A stretch of 37,367 bases of DNA. Source: Rickettsiales bacterium (ex Bugula neritina AB1). GTDB lineage: Bacteria; Pseudomonadota; Alphaproteobacteria; CAJXXZ01; UBA1459. Of this stretch, positions 214-37,367 are shown piece after piece. A program made the translations under genes and the position numbers. Within the stretch, counting starts at the first letter, position 1; each line of letters starts with the position of its first letter. The DNA lies in the NCBI GenBank assembly GCA_001730065.1, contig MDLE01000002.1, positions 1 to 37,367 of the forward strand, written 5' to 3'. Under the pieces are notes generated by a model that worked only from the letters and a program-made list of their open reading frames with translations, ran no database searches and was not told the DNA's origin.

Positions 214-3200
214 ATGAAAAAAAACAAATATATTTTATTTAATTATATTATTTTTACTTCTGTAATCTCTGAAGAAAATATAGAAAATATAGAAAATATA
301 GAAAATATAAAAATAGAAAAAAAATCTCAAAAAGAAATTAAAGAATTGATAATATTTTTTTTTGAAGATACTAAATTTGAAAAAGATTCACAAGAATTTC
401 AAAATTTTATTAAAGAGAATGATAGTTTAATAGAAGATATTTCACAATTGTTATACAATAATAATCCTAATATATCAATTAATAATTTTACAGATATTTA
501 TCAAAATGTAATAGGTTTTAATGATATGTTATATGAAAAATTAGAATACGAAAAAGAAAAAATATTAAACAATATTAAATTATCTTTAACATTTATAAAC
601 AACAATGACAAATTACTTAGTTATATCAAAGATAATAAACAATTAAATTTTACCGAATCTAGAAATAATACAAATAATCATAGAACAATTGATAATCAAA
701 TGATGGACATGTTTTTACTTTTATATCAAACAAATAAAATAAATCAAAAATTAGGAAAAAAACCACAAAGTATAGAAGCTTTACTAGTAAACTTGAAAGA
801 ATATTTAACAATAATCCAAGAAAATGAAGATTTACAAAATTTAACTGCAAATTCTTTTAACTTATCTGCAGATCCCGTATATTATTGTATTAATTATTGT
901 GAACTAAGATATTCTCCTAATTTGAAAATAAAAAATATACATTTACTAGGTAAGTTAGGAGTATTAGAAGAAATAATACACAAATATTTTAAAAATGGAG
1001 TAATATCACAAGAATTAGAAAGTTTAAAGGGTGAGAAACAAAAACAAATAATAATCAATTTGTTTGATCTATTAAATATTAAAGAAGTAAAAAATAGAAT
1101 TATTGATTTTAATACAAAAAGTATGAAAGATGCCTTAAAAGATTTTAATTTTACGGATGAGCAAATTTTAAACAACAATAAATTAATAAATGAAGTGATA
1201 GAATATCTATATGATCTAAAAAATGAAATTTTTTCAGCATATCAAATGAAATTTTCAATCCTTAAAAGGGTTTGCAATATAAATAATATTGATAAAGATC
1301 AAGTGTTAGAATATTGTCTTTTGATTTTTAAATTTATAAAAAATAATGAATTACTAAATGTTTATAATAAAGATGGAACATTAAGACCTTTTGTAGATTA
1401 TGGATATCGCGTAAAAAATGTTACTGCTGATGAAAATTCTTATAGTTTTTTTAATCCTTTTGTGGATAATAATATTAATATATATTTTTATAGTTATAAT
1501 TTAGGAATTAAATATGTAAAAGAAATAAATCAACAATTAAATATAAATATAAACAAAAATGATCTAAAAAGTTTAATGAATGATATAAATAAGTATTTAG
1601 AAATTATAGAAAATTCATCTATTAATGATTTGTCATCAGAAGAATTAAATGTAAATTCAAATCAATTATCTCAAATATCTAAGAAAAATTTTTATTTTGT
1701 AAATATCCGTAACAAGATAAAAGAAGTACAATTTCATGAAAGATTAAATATATTAAATACAATATTAAAAAAATATTGGAATAACAATGAAAACTTCAAT
1801 AGAATAAAACATAAATATGTAAAAAAAGCAATAGAAGAATTATTTGAAAAAATAAACAAAACAAATCTACAAGAAAATAATAACAATAAAATACCAAGAT
1901 TACTTCAAAACATTCCAACTCCAAAAAAATACGAAAAAAATATTATCGAAGAAAATGAAAATATTATAAAAGAAAATGAAAATATTATAAAAAAAAATCA
2001 AAGTATTATAAAAGAAGTATTAAAAAAATTAGAATATAAAAATATTAATAATAATCAACCATTAATAAAACAAATTGCAGAATATGTATCTGAAAACCAA
2101 AAAGAAGTAATTACTGATGAAAAAATTAAATATATTATAAATATTATAGAAGAAATAAATACAAATATTTTAAATAATTATAACAAACTTACAATTGAAG
2201 AACTACTACAAAATTTTAAAATAATTCTAGAATTTATAAAAAATAATGATCACTTATTGGGTATAAATACAAAAAAAAATAACAATACATTTTTTCTTCC
2301 TTTTATGAGTGATACTATTCAATTACAGTTTAATAATATATATTGGTCATTAGATAACACAAAAATAATAAATAACAAACTAGGAAAAGAAGGTAAAAGT
2401 ATAGAAGATTTATTAGTAAACTTAAAAGAATATTTAACAATAATAGATAGAAATATTGAAAATTTTAAAATAAGTGAATTGGGTTTAGATTTTGAAGAAA
2501 ATTCTTCAAAAGATTGTTCCATATACAATAGTAATGAAGTACAAGAATTAACACCTCCAGATAAATTAAAAGTATTAATTAATTTAATTAATAAATATTG
2601 GGATTATGAAAATAATGAAATCAAAGAAATAAAAAATAATAAAGTAAAACAAGCAATAACACAATTATTTAATGAAATAAATATAAAAAATAAAAAAGAA
2701 AATATTATAAAAAAAAATCAAAGTATTATAAAAGAAGTATTAAAAAAATTAGAATATAAAAATATTAATAATAATCAACCATTAATAAAACAAATTGCAG
2801 AATATGTATCTGAAAACCAAAAAGAAGTAATTACTGATGAAAAAATTAAATATATTATAAATATTATAGAAGAAATAAATACAAATATCTTAAATAATTA
2901 TAACAAACTTACAATTGAAGAACTACTACAAAATTTTAAAATAATTCTAGAGTTTATAAAAAATAATGATCACTTATTGGGTATAAATACAAAAAAAAAT
3001 AACAATACATTTTTTCTTCCTTTTATGAGTGATACTATTCAATTACAGTTTAATAATATATATTGGTCATTAGATAACACAAAAATAATAAATAACAAAC
3101 TAGGAAAAGAAGGTAAAAGTATAGAAGATTTATTAGTAAACTTAAAAGAATATTTAACAATAATAGATAGAAATATTGAAAATTTTAAAATAAGTGAATT

Positions 3201-5259
3201 CAGTTTAGATTTTGAAGAAAATTGTTTAAAATATTGTTCCATATACAATAGTAATGAAGTAAAAGAATTAACACCTAAAGATAAATTAAAAGTATTAATT
3301 GATTTAATTAATAAATATTGGGATTATCAAAATAATGAAATAAAAGAAATAAAAAATAATGCAATAAAACAAGCAATAACACAATTATTTAATGAAATAA
3401 ATATAAAAAATAAAAAAGAAAATATTATAAAAGACAATCAAAATACTATAGAAGACAATCAAAGTATTATAAAAGACAATCAAAGTATTATAAAAGACAA
3501 TCAAAGTATTATAAAAGACAATCAAAATAATATTGAGAATGCTTTAAAAACAAGATATACAAATACTGAAATTAATGATAGTACTAATCTTATAAGAAAA
3601 ATTTTAGATACTTTTTATGACATTTATAACGTAGTTATTTCAAAAGAAGAATTTATAAATATTTTTAGTCCATTTTTTTTAAATATAGATACAGAATTAC
3701 CTATCAAAATCTTACTAAATAATCTTAATAATATTTTGATATTTATGCAAAATAATAATAATATTTTAAGTATTGATAAAAAAAATGAAGTAATAAATTT
3801 TAATAATTCATATGTTAGTGATCAATTTTATAATATTTTTATTTCATTGAATACAGTTAATGATATTAATAGTCAACTAGGAATAGATAATAGTGATATA
3901 TTAAATAAATTATTAAAATATTTAACTTTAATTGATAAACATATAAGTAAATTTTCATTAACTGAACTAGATATTGATATGAAAACAATAATATTAGATT
4001 TAACTTTAAGATATCAATTTTTAGAGGAACATAAATTTTTTTTAGAATATCAATTTTATATACCTACAAAAGAATTAAATAAAAATTATAATACTTTAAA
4101 TAAAATAAATGAATTAGAAACAAAATTTAAATTAAATATACTACTACAATTAATAGACAAATACTGGAATTATGAAAAAAACACTATAAATGATTCAATA
4201 AACATAGGACAAGAAGTAAAAAATGAAATTCAAAATTTGTTTAATGAATTAAATATGAAAAAAACAAAAGAAGAAATTATTAAATTAAATAATCAAAATA
4301 TTAAATTTGCTTTAAATTCTATAGGATTACAATATGATAATGTTGATGAATTAATAAAAAAAATTGCTAAATTCTTTTATAAAACAGTTATTTCTGAAAA
4401 AGAAATAATTTATTTCTTTGAAGAAATAAAAGAAATAAATAATTACAAAAAACTAGAAAATTATCAAATACTTAAATATTTAAAAGATATTTTAGTATTT
4501 ATAGATAAAAATAATATGATATATGATAATAATAAAAATGAGTATTTTAAAAAAAATATTTTTAATAATTTTGATCTAATAATGTCACTTATTTCTACAA
4601 TGAAAGACATAAATGAATTATCAATCATAGATATGGAAAATAATAATAAAGATATAACAGAACTACTAATTCAAGTAAAAGAATACCTAAAATTAATTGA
4701 AAATACTATAGATCCATTTACATTAAATGATTTAGGTATTGAAGATGCAACAACAAAAGTACAAGACTGTGATACTTATAAAAAATTTTCAATCCTAATA
4801 GATTTGATATATAAATATTGGAGTTATGAAGATAATGAAATAATAAAAAAAGAAATAAACAAATTAGATAATAACACAAAAAAAGTAATAATAAATTTGT
4901 TTGAAGAAATGCAAAATTACCACAAAAAAAAAGAAAATGGAGAAAAAATATTTCAATTAATATTAGGTAGTATTATAGTAATAATTATTTTATATTACTT
5001 AATTTGTAATTATTCCCATAAACAAAAAAGTCAATTAGTTTTAAACAATGAAGAAGAAGAATACATAAGTAATAATCAAGAAAATATCAATAATAAAGAA
5101 AAAACAATATATCCATCATCAAATACTGAAGAAGAAATAATGTTACCTGATCATCCTGATAATAATCAAGAAGAAAGAAATATACTACTGACAAAAACAC
5201 AGATAATTTTAGGGAAAATACTAGCATTTTTTGAAACAATTAGAAGATGTTTCAATTAA
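214..5259 (+). CDS. giant modular repeat protein with C-terminal membrane anchor
   Basis: This 1681-residue protein matches no family I can name. The N-terminus is a short basic stretch followed by a hydrophobic segment (about residues 5-19), which could be a signal peptide or anchor. The body contains six related modules of about 240-280 residues. Each has a helix resembling LLVNLKEYLTII (near residues 191, 454, 735, 975, 1232 and 1484) and, later, a signature resembling LINKYWDYENNEI (near 251, 513, 787, 1027, 1309 and 1526). Modules are joined by heptad-like linkers such as NIIKDNQ. One membrane segment lies near 1579-1600, followed by an acidic tail of about 80 residues. The likely topology is a large extracytoplasmic region with a cytoplasmic tail. 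The gene converges on vgrG with a 4-bp overlap. A surface or host-contact role is inference; a T6SS cargo role is possible but unsupported. Confidence 0.85.
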   Translation: MKKNKYILFNYIIFTSVISEENIENIENIENIKIEKKSQKEIKELIIFFFEDTKFEKDSQEFQNFIKENDSLIEDISQLLYNNNPNISINNFTDIYQNVIGFNDMLYEKLEYEKEKILNNIKLSLTFINNNDKLLSYIKDNKQLNFTESRNNTNNHRTIDNQMMDMFLLLYQTNKINQKLGKKPQSIEALLVNLKEYLTIIQENEDLQNLTANSFNLSADPVYYCINYCELRYSPNLKIKNIHLLGKLGVLEEIIHKYFKNGVISQELESLKGEKQKQIIINLFDLLNIKEVKNRIIDFNTKSMKDALKDFNFTDEQILNNNKLINEVIEYLYDLKNEIFSAYQMKFSILKRVCNINNIDKDQVLEYCLLIFKFIKNNELLNVYNKDGTLRPFVDYGYRVKNVTADENSYSFFNPFVDNNINIYFYSYNLGIKYVKEINQQLNININKNDLKSLMNDINKYLEIIENSSINDLSSEELNVNSNQLSQISKKNFYFVNIRNKIKEVQFHERLNILNTILKKYWNNNENFNRIKHKYVKKAIEELFEKINKTNLQENNNNKIPRLLQNIPTPKKYEKNIIEENENIIKENENIIKKNQSIIKEVLKKLEYKNINNNQPLIKQIAEYVSENQKEVITDEKIKYIINIIEEINTNILNNYNKLTIEELLQNFKIILEFIKNNDHLLGINTKKNNNTFFLPFMSDTIQLQFNNIYWSLDNTKIINNKLGKEGKSIEDLLVNLKEYLTIIDRNIENFKISELGLDFEENSSKDCSIYNSNEVQELTPPDKLKVLINLINKYWDYENNEIKEIKNNKVKQAITQLFNEINIKNKKENIIKKNQSIIKEVLKKLEYKNINNNQPLIKQIAEYVSENQKEVITDEKIKYIINIIEEINTNILNNYNKLTIEELLQNFKIILEFIKNNDHLLGINTKKNNNTFFLPFMSDTIQLQFNNIYWSLDNTKIINNKLGKEGKSIEDLLVNLKEYLTIIDRNIENFKISEFSLDFEENCLKYCSIYNSNEVKELTPKDKLKVLIDLINKYWDYQNNEIKEIKNNAIKQAITQLFNEINIKNKKENIIKDNQNTIEDNQSIIKDNQSIIKDNQSIIKDNQNNIENALKTRYTNTEINDSTNLIRKILDTFYDIYNVVISKEEFINIFSPFFLNIDTELPIKILLNNLNNILIFMQNNNNILSIDKKNEVINFNNSYVSDQFYNIFISLNTVNDINSQLGIDNSDILNKLLKYLTLIDKHISKFSLTELDIDMKTIILDLTLRYQFLEEHKFFLEYQFYIPTKELNKNYNTLNKINELETKFKLNILLQLIDKYWNYEKNTINDSINIGQEVKNEIQNLFNELNMKKTKEEIIKLNNQNIKFALNSIGLQYDNVDELIKKIAKFFYKTVISEKEIIYFFEEIKEINNYKKLENYQILKYLKDILVFIDKNNMIYDNNKNEYFKKNIFNNFDLIMSLISTMKDINELSIIDMENNNKDITELLIQVKEYLKLIENTIDPFTLNDLGIEDATTKVQDCDTYKKFSILIDLIYKYWSYEDNEIIKKEINKLDNNTKKVIINLFEEMQNYHKKKENGEKIFQLILGSIIVIIILYYLICNYSHKQKSQLVLNNEEEEYISNNQENINNKEKTIYPSSNTEEEIMLPDHPDNNQEERNILLTKTQIILGKILAFFETIRRCFN
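274..309 (+). repeat. 9-bp coding tandem repeat (ENI x4)
   Basis: Four perfect in-frame copies of gaaaatata encode Glu-Asn-Ile repeats just after the putative signal segment of the giant protein. Confidence 0.9.
1978..2697 (+). repeat. 720-bp tandem duplication, copy 1
   Basis: This is the first of two adjacent in-frame 720-bp (240-residue) units of the giant gene. The first ~500 bp match copy 2 with only two differences, both synonymous. The stretch 2482-2646 carries most of the divergence. Confidence 0.95.
2698..3417 (+). repeat. 720-bp tandem duplication, copy 2
   Basis: This is the second 720-bp unit, directly abutting copy 1. In 3202-3366, 14 base differences from copy 1 cause 11 amino-acid replacements and one synonymous change. 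The last ~50 bp are identical again. Confidence 0.95.
3421..3525 (+). repeat. 21-bp coding repeats forming a heptad linker
   Basis: Five consecutive 21-bp units encode NIIKDNQ, NTIEDNQ and three SIIKDNQ heptads, followed by a decayed sixth. The i/i+3-4 spacing of Ile suggests a coiled-coil linker between modules. The other module boundaries carry fewer copies. Confidence 0.9.
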
Positions 5260-7592
5260 ATAATACCTTTAGAAATCAAAAAATCTAGTATTACAGGTAC
5301 CGCTGAATCTAATCTACATAGTACACTATTTGTAGCAAATGATGTACAATTTAAACTCATAGCTAAACCTGCATTTATACCTACTTCAAGACCTGCATCT
5401 ACGGAATATTTCAAACCTACTTTTTGAGCGATATTCATACCTGAATCTAGACTAATATCTAAACCTGAAGACATTTTTATACACATACCCGCCACTAAAG
5501 ATAAATCCATGCCACTTTCTAAAGAAGTAACAGCACCACTTTTTGTTTTGTAATCTCCTGTTGCTTCCATATTAATATCCATCATTGCCATACATTTTAA
5601 AGAACCTGCATCAATTTTTACATCATTTATGGCTTTAATAGAGCCTTTATCGGAAGCCTCTAAAGAAAAAGAAGCATCTGCTATGATATCAATTTCAGGA
5701 GCTGTCATTGATATTTTTGTATCACTATGTATACTCATATCTAAATTTGAAATTACTTCTAAACTATCAGATGTCATAATTTTTGTTTTTCCTACTATTT
5801 CAATATCACATTCTTTTGCAATATGTATTTTACCATTACCAGTAATATCAATATCTGTATCACCATTTACTTCTATTGTTAATTTTCCTTCTGTTATTTT
5901 TAAAGAATAATCACCACCTTTATCACCTTTTATTATAACAGTACTTTCAGATCCATGAATAGTACGACTATAATCACCATTTGTTAAATCTAATGTATAA
6001 TCACCCTCTAAAATTTTTTCTTCTCTTTTACCTTTTAACATTGTAAATGTATAATTATTTTCTACTTCTTCTCTTTTACCAACAGATATTTCCATATCTT
6101 TTTGAGCTTCTAAAAATACTTTTTCATTATTTTCTTGATCATCAATATAGATAGAAGTACTACCCATATATGTATCCGTTAAACTTTTTGATTTAAAAGC
6201 AAATTTACTTTTATCATTTTCAAGACCATAAAAATTTTTAAAAACTTCTGTATACATACTACCTACTACTACAGGTATATCTGGATTACCACCAATAAAA
6301 CTTATCAAAACTTCATCATCTTTACGAGGTGTAATATAACTACCAAATTCATTACTTGATAAGCTATTTGCTAATGGAACCCATCCTACATCCTTATCAG
6401 AAATCATTTCCATATCCTTTTCCATATTCATATTCCATTTAAATTGTACTTTTATATATCCTAGTTCATTCCTATAAACCTTTTCTTCCTCAGGAGTAAT
6501 TACTTTAGCAGGTAATAAACCGTTAATCAAAGGTCTTTCAAGTTTCTCTGAAGATACAAAAACTTTATCTCCAGCTATAGTTTTAAATTTATTTACATAA
6601 TAATAGGGAGTGTTCTTTGCATAATTAGGTAATTCAAATATATGTTCTATACTAGTAATAACATTAGGCTCTAGAAATACTTCTCCTTCAATGAGTAATC
6701 CTGCTTCTCCTTTAAAAATATAAGATATTATTTCCATACTTTCATTATCATGTTCATTTTTACTACGAATAGCTTCTCCATAATTGTGACCTTCTTCATC
6801 ATTAGAAAAATATACGGGATATTTTTTATATGCTCCTATACCTTTATCTGATACAACAACATTTTCTAAAGGTTTATCAGGAGAAACAATATCTATGTTT
6901 TTCACATAATATTCTTTATAGGTGGTTTTACGATTAATATTGACTTTATGAATTAAATCGATATATGAATTATGTACATTACCTAAGTAATATTTTTTTT
7001 CAGATTTTTTATAACCTATAACAGTATTATAAATATATATAATATTTTCTTTAGCGTCACAAATAAAATAATAACCGTGCATTTGTAAAAGTCTTTTTAG
7101 AAAATGTAAACTATTTTCTCCAAATTGTACAAGTGTATTAATTTTAATTTTTTTTAGTAAATCACTATTTCCTGCCATCTGTGTTTCTGAATCTACTAAG
7201 ACCTCATATATTACATCATAAAGAGTTGTTTTTTGAAAAATACGATATGGACAAAAATAATTTAAGGAGTATAAATGATGATAAATATCAAATGACACAC
7301 ACCATTGTAGGGTTTTTGAGATTTCCACAAAATTTTGATGTTTTGTATAATTAAAAATTTTACCATTATATATTTTTTTATTAGTATCATCAATTTTTGC
7401 TGTAATAACAATAGATTTTAATAATTCTTCTTCTATAAGAAGAATAGGTATATTTTCTTCAGAATATACCATAGTAGTCATATTTATATAAGTTGCTTGT
7501 GATAACTCTTCTTTTATTATTAATTTACATACAAAATTATCAAAAGAAAGTTTATCTACTAAAATTTGATAATTAGTTTTATTTTCACTCAT
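5256..7592 (-). CDS. vgrG: type VI secretion spike protein VgrG (TssI)
   Basis: VgrG forms the trimeric spike at the tip of the T6SS tube and is delivered into the target cell. The 778-residue product has the family layout. A gp27-like region spans about residues 1-370. A gp5 OB-fold follows at about 375-460, containing GYIKVQFKW, GWVPLANSL, PRKDDEVLISF and GGNPDIPVVVG. The remainder is a long beta-helical needle. Residues about 693-748 are seven consecutive octads with Gly at position 2, like the octapeptide repeats of the phage T4 gp5 needle. I see no extra C-terminal effector domain. A GGGGGAT stretch lies about 9 nt before the ATG and supports this start. No other T6SS gene is in the window. 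The gene ends against the giant protein gene with a 4-bp overlap, and its 5' end diverges from dnaX. Confidence 0.93.
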   Translation of the reverse strand: MSENKTNYQILVDKLSFDNFVCKLIIKEELSQATYINMTTMVYSEENIPILLIEEELLKSIVITAKIDDTNKKIYNGKIFNYTKHQNFVEISKTLQWCVSFDIYHHLYSLNYFCPYRIFQKTTLYDVIYEVLVDSETQMAGNSDLLKKIKINTLVQFGENSLHFLKRLLQMHGYYFICDAKENIIYIYNTVIGYKKSEKKYYLGNVHNSYIDLIHKVNINRKTTYKEYYVKNIDIVSPDKPLENVVVSDKGIGAYKKYPVYFSNDEEGHNYGEAIRSKNEHDNESMEIISYIFKGEAGLLIEGEVFLEPNVITSIEHIFELPNYAKNTPYYYVNKFKTIAGDKVFVSSEKLERPLINGLLPAKVITPEEEKVYRNELGYIKVQFKWNMNMEKDMEMISDKDVGWVPLANSLSSNEFGSYITPRKDDEVLISFIGGNPDIPVVVGSMYTEVFKNFYGLENDKSKFAFKSKSLTDTYMGSTSIYIDDQENNEKVFLEAQKDMEISVGKREEVENNYTFTMLKGKREEKILEGDYTLDLTNGDYSRTIHGSESTVIIKGDKGGDYSLKITEGKLTIEVNGDTDIDITGNGKIHIAKECDIEIVGKTKIMTSDSLEVISNLDMSIHSDTKISMTAPEIDIIADASFSLEASDKGSIKAINDVKIDAGSLKCMAMMDINMEATGDYKTKSGAVTSLESGMDLSLVAGMCIKMSSGLDISLDSGMNIAQKVGLKYSVDAGLEVGINAGLAMSLNCTSFATNSVLCRLDSAVPVILDFLISKGII

Positions 7593-13271: not shown

Positions 13272-14141
13272 ATGAGTATAAAAAATCAAATATATGAAAA
13301 AAAATCTATTTCTAATTACGACGAAAATAATCTATTAATAGAAAAAAATAGTACCACTTATAGTAGTGAGGAAATAACACCAGGGTCACTAAAAGAGTTT
13401 TTCACTAGAGTTGTAATTCAGAAACCTACAGATTTACAAATTTACTGGAATAATGATCAATATGAAATAAAATGGCGTAAAGATATGGAAGAAATAGAAG
13501 AAACAGATGCGGAAATAAATATTTCTCATATTCCTTTGAAGGAAATGGTAGCAAATCCAAAAGTTTCTATTAGATTTTTAAATAGTTCATCACATATGGA
13601 TGTTAAGGCGTTTATTTTTGAGCGTATTAAAAATAGATTTACGGAAGAAGAAAATCGTTGTTTTTTATTTGGAAATGGTGAAAAAGAAATACATGGTATT
13701 TTACATAATATGTATTTCGACACAATAAAAAAAGTTTCTTTAGAAAAAAGTAAAAATATTATTATGGCTCTCCTAGAAATGGAACATAAATTACCTAATG
13801 TATATAAAAATGATGCTTCTTGGATTATGAGTAGAAGTTTTCTTTTAGATTTAGAATCATATGCTTATAGTAAAGAAAATAACTTTAATCTTCTTAAAGA
13901 TGGTTTAAATTATACACTTTTTGGAAGAAAAATATTTATATTTGATGATAATAGTTATAATAAAGATAAAAATTATGCTTCATGTATTTTAATTCATAAA
14001 GGCGCATATGTAGTTATGGAGACGAATATTACTATGATGGAAAATCCTTATTTTTCACCTCCTGATGTACAATTAGTATATAGGAAATACGTAGGTGGAG
14101 GAGTTGTAGTGAAGGAAGCAATAGTATTTCTTACAAAGTAA
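13272..14141 (+). CDS. GTA-like HK97-fold major capsid protein lacking scaffold domain
   Basis: The product resembles the HK97-family major capsid protein, especially gene 5 of the Rhodobacter gene transfer agent. The order of signatures matches. LNSSSHMDVKAFIFERIKNRF is followed by EENRCFLFGNGEKEIHGIL (family: AFxxGDGxxxPxGIL). Then come DASWIMSRSFLLDL, LFGRKIFIFDD and a C-terminal VGGGVVVKEAIVFLTK that parallels the GTA ending VGGGV...AI.LLK. At 289 residues it is about the size of a processed capsid protein; the N-terminal ~100-residue scaffold region usually removed by the prohead protease is absent. AAGGAG lies 8 nt before the ATG, an unusually clear ribosome site for this window. Whether particles form cannot be told. 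Confidence 0.8.
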   Translation: MSIKNQIYEKKSISNYDENNLLIEKNSTTYSSEEITPGSLKEFFTRVVIQKPTDLQIYWNNDQYEIKWRKDMEEIEETDAEINISHIPLKEMVANPKVSIRFLNSSSHMDVKAFIFERIKNRFTEEENRCFLFGNGEKEIHGILHNMYFDTIKKVSLEKSKNIIMALLEMEHKLPNVYKNDASWIMSRSFLLDLESYAYSKENNFNLLKDGLNYTLFGRKIFIFDDNSYNKDKNYASCILIHKGAYVVMETNITMMENPYFSPPDVQLVYRKYVGGGVVVKEAIVFLTK

Positions 14142-34699: not shown

Positions 34700-34954
34700 A
34701 TGAAGTAAAAGAATACAATAAAGAACAAAATTTTGAACCACAAAGTAAAAGAATACAATAAAGAACAAAATTTTGAACCACAAGTATTTGGTGATAGTGA
34801 AAAACAAGAAAAAGTAATACCAGTAAAATCAGAAGGATATTTTGATGTTGGAATTGAAAGTAACTTAAAAAACAAATATCCAACTCAAACATATAAACCA
34901 AGAAAATCTGGTGGTTATATTGAAGTAGAAAGAAAAGGAAAAATATATCATTAG
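34700..34954 (+). pseudogene. broken small gene with disrupted start
   Basis: An ATG at 34700 meets a stop after two codons. From 34744 on, a good coding-like frame continues to TAG at 34954, including QVFGDSEKQEKVIPVKSEGYF and a C-terminal GGYIEVERKGKIYH. A perfect 40-bp tandem duplication (not a multiple of 3) throws the upstream part out of frame. A TTG at 34733 could start a 73-residue protein, but there is no ribosome site. It is probably a recent casualty; the original function is unknown. Confidence 0.45.
34704..34783 (+). repeat. 40-bp perfect tandem duplication
   Basis: Two identical 40-bp copies (34704-34743 and 34744-34783) lie at the start of the broken small gene and shift its frame. 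Confidence 0.95.
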
Positions 34955-35071
34955 TTACTTTTGTTTTTATCAATTATATATAAAAAAAAATGATTTAAAA
35001 ATTTAGTATAACCTTATTAAAGCGCAATTCGCAATTATTAAAACACCTATATTTTTTTATTATTTACCTAT

Positions 35072-35119
35072 ATTGTTTTATTGTTTTATTGTTTTATTGT
35101 TTTATTATTTTATTGTTTT
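35072..35119 (+). repeat. 8-bp microsatellite upstream of the second giant gene
   Basis: Six tandem units of attgtttt (the fifth is attatttt) end 32 bp before the ATG of the following gene. The last TTGTTT sits at the -35 position of a candidate promoter, so copy-number change could alter transcription. Confidence 0.9.
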
Positions 35120-35141
35120 ATATGTTTTTTATTGGTATAAT
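35113..35141 (+). promoter_or_regulatory. candidate promoter of the second giant gene
   Basis: TTGTTT (35113-35118) and a perfect TATAAT (35136-35141) are spaced by 17 bp. The -35 half lies inside the last repeat unit. The -10 is 10 nt before the ATG, which predicts a nearly leaderless mRNA. TATAAT matches are common in such AT-rich DNA; the exact spacing is the stronger point. Confidence 0.4.
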
Positions 35142-35151
35142 TTAATTTAAT

Positions 35152-37367
35152 ATGAAAATAAAAAGATTACAATTTAATATAACACCACTAATTTGTATAC
35201 TATTTTTATGCTTAGGTAATTTTTCTTATAGTAGTTCAAAAAAAAATAAAACTAAACCAAGTGAGATGATTAATAATGTTCATCAAAATACAGATATTCA
35301 AGATATTCAAGAGATTAAAAAAAATTTAGCATCAGAATTAGAAAAAAAAACAACAATTTTTCAAAAGATAAATGAATGTGATGTAGAATTAAAATCTAAA
35401 ATAAAAATTTTTTTAAAAGACAAAATAATTGACGACGAAATAATTAAAATTGACAACCAAAAATCGTCAACAAAAAACCAAAAATCGTCAACAAAAAACC
35501 AAAAATCGTCAACAAAAAACCAAAAAGAAATAGAAGAAAATTTTTTTATAGATGTAATTAATAATTTTATAGATCAATCTTTTTTTTATAAAAATATTAA
35601 AATATATTATGTAGCAAAAATAATAGAAAAATATACAGTTAAAGATTCTGAACAAACAACTTTAATAGAAGATCATATAAATGATATTTTTGAATCAGAG
35701 GAATGGAAATTATTTCTAAATCCACTAATATTATGTTTTAAAGAATGTTTTAAAGAAAAACTATCCTCATTGTCTAAAGAAATAAGCAGCAAAACAAATA
35801 AAGAAAAAAGAACAATAGAAACAACAATAAGACAAGAAATAGAAAAAAATGTAAGACTAGTATACCCAACAAAAAAAATAGAAGAAATAGAAAAAATAGA
35901 CAAAAAATTTTTTATTAGTTGTGCAGAATTGATTTTTCAAAAAAAAATTATCAATAAATTCAACAAAAAAATATTTCAATACATTTCAGACCACAACATC
36001 TTACAAAATAATTCTTTTGTTAGTTATGTCGAAGAAAAATTAAGCAAATTCACAAAAAAAAAAGAAGATTCACCTATTAAAGATTTTTATATTTCATTTA
36101 TTGATTCTTTAGATCAAGATTTTGAAAACATATTACAAAACATAAATAAAAAATTGCCACAAATTTTAGATCAAGAAGATTCAACAGACGAAGACATACA
36201 AAAAGTAATAGAAGCAATAGAAGAAGAACTACAAAAAAACAACAAAGCAATAGAAAAAGAACTACAAAAAAAAAAAAAAAAAAAAATAAAGAACAATCAA
36301 TCAAAATGTTTTAAATCAAAATATTGTGGTGTTTTCACATCAATAATAATAATAGTGATTTGGAGCTGCTATATCTTAAAATATAATGAAAATCATAATA
36401 ATACTGCAATTGCTGTATATCATGGAAATCATGGAAATATTTGTGAAATACCTCAAATTTGTGAAATACCTCAAATTTGTGAAATACCGACTCAAGATCA
36501 TTATAAAGAAATACATGGAAATATTTCTGAAATACCGACTCAAGATCATTATAAAGAAATAGATTCAACAGAATTTAATTATTTTGAATTTATTTGTTTA
36601 AGTATATTCAACATTTTCTTAATGCAATTCATTAAATATAGATATAATGAATATAATCAAAGAAAAAATAATCCAAATTCTACAAATCCTACAGATCCTA
36701 TAAAAATAGATCCTACAAATTCTACAAATTCTACAAATTCTACAAATTCTACAAATCCTACAAATCATAAAAAAAATAATAAATTATTAGATAAAATACA
36801 TAAAAATAAAACCATACTATCAAACATACTACTTTATTCTCCATTATTATTCTCCTTCATTTACTTATTATCAAAATTAAATAATAATGAAAATAATAAT
36901 GAAAATAATACTAAAGATAATAATACTGAAAATAATACTAAATTTACTTTTGTTTTTTTTAATCAATCTTTATCTTTGCTTAATCAATCTTTATCTTTGC
37001 TTAATCAATCTTCGCTTCATCAATCTTTGCTTCATCAATCTTTATCTTTGCTTAATCAATCTTTATCTTTGCTTCGTCAATCTTTGATTAATCAATCTTT
37101 GCTTAATCAATCTGTATCTTTGCTTAATCAATCTGTATCTTTGCTTAATCAATCTTTATCTTTGCTTAATCAATCTTCGCTTAATCAATCTTCGCTTAAT
37201 CAATCGCTTAATCAATCGCTTAATCAATCGCTTAATCAATCTTTATCTTTGCTTTATCAATCTTTGCTTAATCAATCTTCGCTTAATCAATCTTTGCTTT
37301 ATCAATCTTTGCTTAATCAATCGCTTAATCAATCTTTATCTTTGCTTAATCAATCTTTATCTTTGCT
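35152..37367 (+). CDS. second giant repeat-rich membrane protein, 3' end beyond window
   Basis: The frame from ATG 35152 has no stop through the window end: 738 complete codons, checked codon by codon. It starts with a clear signal peptide (MKIKRLQFNITPLICILFLCLG, then FSYSS). A Lys/Glu-rich helical region runs to about residue 390. Hydrophobic segments lie near 391-411, 478-497 and 554-576. From residue 604 an array of NQS-type repeats begins. Between these are other in-frame repeats: NQKSSTK x3, CEIPQI x2, a 48-bp EIPTQDHYKEI repeat, and NST/NPT triplets. No family is recognised. In general design it resembles the giant gene at 214-5259. A function at the cell surface or in the host is inference. 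Confidence 0.8.
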   Translation, partial: MKIKRLQFNITPLICILFLCLGNFSYSSSKKNKTKPSEMINNVHQNTDIQDIQEIKKNLASELEKKTTIFQKINECDVELKSKIKIFLKDKIIDDEIIKIDNQKSSTKNQKSSTKNQKSSTKNQKEIEENFFIDVINNFIDQSFFYKNIKIYYVAKIIEKYTVKDSEQTTLIEDHINDIFESEEWKLFLNPLILCFKECFKEKLSSLSKEISSKTNKEKRTIETTIRQEIEKNVRLVYPTKKIEEIEKIDKKFFISCAELIFQKKIINKFNKKIFQYISDHNILQNNSFVSYVEEKLSKFTKKKEDSPIKDFYISFIDSLDQDFENILQNINKKLPQILDQEDSTDEDIQKVIEAIEEELQKNNKAIEKELQKKKKKKIKNNQSKCFKSKYCGVFTSIIIIVIWSCYILKYNENHNNTAIAVYHGNHGNICEIPQICEIPQICEIPTQDHYKEIHGNISEIPTQDHYKEIDSTEFNYFEFICLSIFNIFLMQFIKYRYNEYNQRKNNPNSTNPTDPIKIDPTNSTNSTNSTNSTNPTNHKKNNKLLDKIHKNKTILSNILLYSPLLFSFIYLLSKLNNNENNNENNTKDNNTENNTKFTFVFFNQSLSLLNQSLSLLNQSSLHQSLLHQSLSLLNQSLSLLRQSLINQSLLNQSVSLLNQSVSLLNQSLSLLNQSSLNQSSLNQSLNQSLNQSLNQSLSLLYQSLLNQSSLNQSLLYQSLLNQSLNQSLSLLNQSLSL
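35455..35517 (+). repeat. 21-bp coding repeat (NQKSSTK x3)
   Basis: Three perfect 21-bp units are followed by a partial fourth, in frame within the second giant protein gene. Confidence 0.95.
36442..36561 (+). repeat. 18-bp and 48-bp coding repeats (CEIPQI; EIPTQDHYKEI)
   Basis: Two copies of tgtgaaatacctcaaatt start at 36442 and 36460. A 48-bp unit starting at 36481 and 36529 (second copy partial) repeats EIPTQDHYKEI. All are in frame, between the first and second hydrophobic segments. Confidence 0.9.
36673..36771 (+). repeat. 9-bp coding repeat (NST/NPT/DPT)
   Basis: A run of 9-bp units of type aattctaca and aatcctaca encodes Asn-Ser-Thr or Asn-Pro-Thr triplets between the second and third hydrophobic segments. 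Confidence 0.9.
36961..37367 (+). repeat. mixed 12/15/21-bp coding satellite (NQSL, NQSSL/NQSLL, NQSLSLL)
   Basis: Twenty-four consecutive in-frame units are present, the last cut by one base at the window end: ten of 7 residues, ten of 5 and four of 4. Gln-Ser is invariant, and the first residue is Asn in 19 units and His, Tyr or Arg in five. The array continues beyond the window. The coding strand switches from purine-rich to pyrimidine-rich at its start. Confidence 0.95.

Follow-up and report, generated by a model that had tools for sequence, protein, structure and literature searches.

A single-copy, repeat-rich orphan gene that runs off a contig end in a draft Rickettsiales genome

The TRPs of Ehrlichia are tandem-repeat effectors that are secreted by the type I route, have neither a signal peptide nor membrane segments and carry longer, acidic repeats. 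The gene described here begins at position 35152 of the window (the whole stretch of DNA analysed, which is the complete contig C2 of 37,367 bp). It shares with the TRPs in-frame tandem arrays and the setting of obligately intracellular alphaproteobacteria, but its product has an N-terminal hydrophobic segment by hydropathy, membrane segments and no family match; its C-terminus, where a type I secretion signal would sit, falls off the contig. The nearest described situation is that of the repeat-expanding secreted proteins of phytoplasmas, the 'Scorpion' PhAMEs, with which the likeness would lie in lineage-specific exported proteins, in-frame variation of repeat number and a reduced genome (PMC12633904); the 35152 protein plausibly diversifies through its repeats as they do. 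Scorpions have 26-residue beta-hairpin repeats with DUF2963 (PMC12633904), whereas the 35152 protein has short low-complexity tracts and membrane segments, gives no Pfam match above cut-off to DUF2963 or beta-hairpin repeats, is predicted to be helical at low confidence and could be placed in none of the tested families. Nearly all sequenced Holosporales retain a type VI system, for which there are no experimental data on secreted cargo (PMC11909080).

The genome is a draft of 435,544 bp in eight contigs, estimated to be 71% complete; two order-mate genomes consist of one contig each, of 627,924 and 589,967 bp. It was sampled as selected stretches of about 180 kb (22% GC), in which contig ends are over-represented and from which the first 20 kb of contig C6 (N) were left out. 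We infer a position near the fast-evolving Holosporaceae, leaning on a shared order label, among others, and not on a tree. The type VI system is represented by VgrG at 5256-7592 and TssK on C6. MutS and MutL genes are also present, so loss of mismatch repair offers no simple explanation for the arrays described below and was set aside. A stand-alone HK97-type phage capsid gene at 13272-14141, with weak relatives in two order-mates, is possibly a gene-transfer-agent or prophage remnant.

From the ATG at 35152, 738 codons run without a stop to the contig end (35152-37365, plus strand), as an earlier note on this DNA had reported. In the same DNA the other five frames hold 60-93 stops apiece and stay open for at most 54-92 codons. 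The part of the frame that precedes the terminal array comprises 603 open codons; when this pre-array DNA was simulated 200 times with a first-order Markov model, the longest open run was 118 codons (mean 59). When codons were scored against housekeeping genes, the 35152 frame was the best of the three forward frames along the whole ORF; one reverse frame scored comparably in places, yet it is filled with stops. This frame is a real protein-coding gene, open far beyond chance. It does lie at an edge, as had been claimed, position 37367 being the end of the contig and not the edge of a sampling window. The label 'giant' is unproven, because the stop codon lies off the contig. Nor is the gene really hidden, since common gene callers output partial genes at contig edges. 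Its features are as follows.

35152..37367, plus strand: orphan repeat-rich membrane-type gene of 738 codons, stop-less at the contig end at 37367 (ORF reading)
35071..35128, plus strand: 8-bp TATTGTTT array, 7.1 copies, ending 23 bp upstream of the ATG
35152..35229, plus strand: signal-peptide-like N-terminus MKIKRLQFNITPLICILFLCLGNFSY, aa 1-26, with a hydrophobic segment at aa 6-24 (hydropathy)
35230..36321, plus strand: domain rich in K, E, N and I, aa 27-390; low-confidence all-helical prediction (AF2 pLDDT 44)
35455..35526, plus strand: NQKSSTK, 21-bp repeat, 3.4 copies, 100% identical (tandem-repeat scan)
36182-36278, plus strand: AIEKELQK-type unit (tandem-repeat scan)
36322..36378, plus strand: hydrophobic segment H1, aa 391-409, Kyte-Doolittle 2.15 (hydropathy)
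36439..36488, plus strand: ICEIPQ, 18-bp repeat, 2.8 copies, 100% identical, running into the EIPTQDHYKEI repeats
36481-36561, plus strand: EIPTQDHYKEI repeats (tandem-repeat scan)
36577..36633, plus strand: hydrophobic segment H2, aa 476-494, Kyte-Doolittle 1.47, marginal (hydropathy)
36713..36765, plus strand: NST, 9-bp repeat, 5.9 copies (tandem-repeat scan)
36814..36870, plus strand: hydrophobic segment H3, aa 555-573, Kyte-Doolittle 1.87 (hydropathy)
36879..36939, plus strand: N/E/T-rich repeats, NNE/NNT (NNENNTK; tandem-repeat scan)
36961..37365, plus strand: NQSL/NQSLL/NQSLSLL terminal array, 135 aa up to the contig end (36959-37367 in the tandem-repeat scan)

At least six families of in-frame tandem repeats were counted, in line with the five or more noted previously. 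The terminal NQSL array mixes units of 12, 15 and 21 bases without a single frame break (23 spacings: ten of 15, nine of 21 and four of 12 bases), and the variants among its copies are all amino-acid changing. N-glycosylation sequons number 16 before the array, compared with 9.1 in shuffles (p 0.0085), and 19 inside it; this excess was set aside as evidence, the count being inflated by repeats. The TATTGTTT octamer array could influence expression of the gene; a promoter scan returned fewer sites than in shuffles and was uninformative. Further upstream, at 34703-34954, a perfect tandem duplication of 40 bp, a length not divisible by 3, begins a 69-codon open stretch that has no homologs in the order and is probably an interrupted small gene.

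Hydropathy agrees with the three hydrophobic segments claimed earlier: H1, H2 (marginal) and H3 were found internally on the Kyte-Doolittle scale, besides the N-terminal segment. The N-terminus resembles a signal peptide, but 'clear', as it had been called, is too strong a word, as the flanking charges disagree. Net charge is +8 before H1, -9 in the H1-H2 loop, +6 in the H2-H3 loop and -2 after H3. Because charges of +8, -9 and +6 flank H1-H3, the positive-inside rule would place the N-domain in the cytoplasm, a predicted arrangement that conflicts with a cleaved signal peptide; either the N-terminal segment would be uncleaved, or one helix would not cross the membrane. The N-terminal and internal segments expected of a Sec-exported membrane protein are present by hydropathy, but the charge pattern is at odds with an exported N-domain. 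A single-sequence AlphaFold2 model of aa 27-394 is all-helical with a pLDDT of only 44, too low for the model to be taken into a fold search.

No paralogs of the 35152 protein were found in its own genome, and no homologs in 7 order genomes, in a search of 95 relatives or in 288 class genomes (a set that partly overlaps the relatives searched). The protein had no match among IMG/VR viral proteins or plasmid proteins, and no family match in Pfam, PHROGs, NCBIfam or PDB sequences. Its sole NCBIfam match, to the HpsJ-like family NF050013, falls in a low-complexity stretch and was rejected at 19.5 bits against a curated cut-off of 140, and PDB phmmer matches to UCHL5 (E 0.02) were dismissed as low-complexity coil matches. 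On these searches the gene is a single-copy orphan, and the earlier statement that no family could be recognized stands.

The same note presented the gene as the second of a pair with the first giant ORF of the window (214-5259), a pairing that did not hold up: the latter belongs to an unrelated family of paralogous modules. ORF 214-5259 consists of six helical modules of ~230-240 aa each, of which modules 3 and 4 are about 95% identical, and module paralogs occur at C3 27315-29771, C1 299-1147 and C7 1-1673, with none in order-mates. An AlphaFold model built from 12 aligned modules is a helical domain (pLDDT 87.4, pTM 0.87); when PDB and viral models were searched with it, Foldseek returned nothing at E < 0.001, the top-ranked PDB match being a designed helical repeat (TM 0.21-0.22), and the module is possibly a new domain family. 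The two kinds of protein have in common the genome, an exported-type N-terminus, a location near contig ends and, in several members of the module family, a C-terminal hydrophobic segment. They differ in that the family is built from ~240-aa helical modules and shows no similarity to the 35152 protein, which gave no match to the module profile (hmmsearch, E up to 10; genome search with the module). The VgrG-like type VI tip gene at 5256-7592 is convergent with ORF 214-5259, their ends overlapping by a few bases.

The 43 nt that close contig C2 repeat exactly the opening 43 nt of the NQSL array (from 36959). Ten of 15 readable contig ends have, no more than 8 nt away, a sequence of at least 41 nt that recurs in the sample, compared with a 95th percentile of 16 nt at random positions. 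Contig C6 terminates within an in-frame array (150/156-bp unit, 6.4 copies, C6:176512-177484, L119:19028-20000) of an orphan gene with a signal-peptide-like start, and C7 likewise terminates inside an in-frame array, in repeat-rich, coiled-coil-like sequence of an orphan ORF with such a start. Because the array start recurs at the contig end and other contig ends are repeat-bound, the break of C2 is best read as the assembler's failure to resolve the NQSL repeat, with the gene continuing off the contig. A search for the continuation found the NQSL array at none of the other sampled contig ends. An assembly artefact had been named beforehand as grounds against the gene: the contig does break at the array, and the assembled sequence by itself gave no sign that the array was fabricated. 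Separately, identical termini of 41-55 nt are found at the C8 start, C3 start and C3 end (L111:1-55, L113:1-41 and the last 55 bases of L114), and the sequence shared by C8 and C3 sits inside a longer dispersed repeat.

The reading that we favour, with some reserve, is that the gene encodes a lineage-restricted, membrane-associated and probably Sec-exported protein, a fast-evolving envelope or surface protein where symbiont and host meet. The protein would be anchored by some three hydrophobic segments together with a charged, helical domain at its N-terminus; the polar linkers and C-terminus would be short in-frame arrays, presumed disordered, whose length would shift in whole-codon steps by replication slippage or unequal recombination, the low-complexity (NQSL)n tail being the variable part. 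The protein would then be one of a set of orphan surface or envelope proteins in an obligately host-dependent bacterium. A host-facing role would fit because of the exported-type start, the orphan status and the lifestyle.

Repeats elsewhere in the genome bear on this reading. Array periods are divisible by 3 in 36 of 39 cases inside ORFs compared with 5 of 11 between genes (Fisher p=0.0018; 180-kb sample), and because of this difference the reading frame appears to be maintained by selection through the arrays. Genes that combine an exported-type N-terminus with few TMs, a class set by a simple hydropathy rule, have a tandem-repeat coverage of 7.31%, compared with 0.86% for other genes; 8 of 36 exported-type genes bear repeats, compared with 7 of 105 others (p=0.014), an enrichment that is carried by a few genes and may be inflated because the sample over-represents contig ends, where exported-type genes sit. 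No such concentration was found in samples of two order-mates (exported-type against other genes: 0.35% against 5.24% in G003, 2.69% against 2.99% in G004). The gene is not alone of its kind: further exported-type orphans with in-frame arrays lie at contig ends.

The best-surviving alternative, which we nevertheless consider unlikely, is that the gene is expressed and its arrays are neutral clutter, left by slippage in a drift-dominated, AT-rich genome and tolerated because they form disordered linkers, with no host-facing function. Differences between copies are overwhelmingly nonsynonymous, at about the rate expected with no selection: modules 3 and 4 of ORF 214-5259 differ at 13 nonsynonymous and 3 synonymous sites (pN 0.022, pS 0.024), units of the C6 array show 2-5 nonsynonymous and 0 synonymous differences, and the NQSL array varies in the same way. 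Repeat copies therefore differ almost only at amino-acid-changing sites, with an about neutral ratio, and the repeat residues look free to vary, with no sign of purifying selection. Against neutral clutter, arrays in this genome are concentrated in exported-type orphans, not scattered through its genes at large. The earlier argument that such a gene must be 'selected or very young' is accordingly better put as a frame that appears to be selected (36/39 against 5/11) and arrays that are probably young, the repeat residues showing no sign of purifying selection.

We consider it very improbable that the gene is a decaying pseudogene or was artificially lengthened by misassembly. The contig does end within an array, and the small interrupted frame of 34703-34954 lies directly upstream; however, the 603 pre-array codons stay open, free of frameshifts although the DNA has many slippage-prone tracts, and only the 35152 frame shows coding phase. 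Least probable of all is an effector that the type VI apparatus, or some other injector, would deliver to the host: VgrG and TssK are encoded in the genome and for this group type VI has been named as the probable route for effectors (PMC11909080), but the protein has a signal-peptide-like N-terminus plus several membrane segments, vgrG is 27 kb away and neither Pfam nor NCBIfam reveals an effector or adaptor domain.

Taken singly, the gene is ordinary in kind; more notable are the genome-wide pattern and a module family without a PDB counterpart. More tentatively than the envelope or surface reading of the 35152 protein itself, we suggest that this lineage may keep hypermutable exported orphans, the 35152 protein included, whose fast-varying arrays would provide contingency-type diversification at the host interface during metabolic genome shrinkage; we found no report of such diversification for fast-evolving Holosporaceae. 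Assemblies of such genomes break at array-bearing exported genes, and because they break exactly there these genes are probably under-reported. With their frame-preserving arrays, such lineage-specific exported genes are concrete candidates for the host interface.
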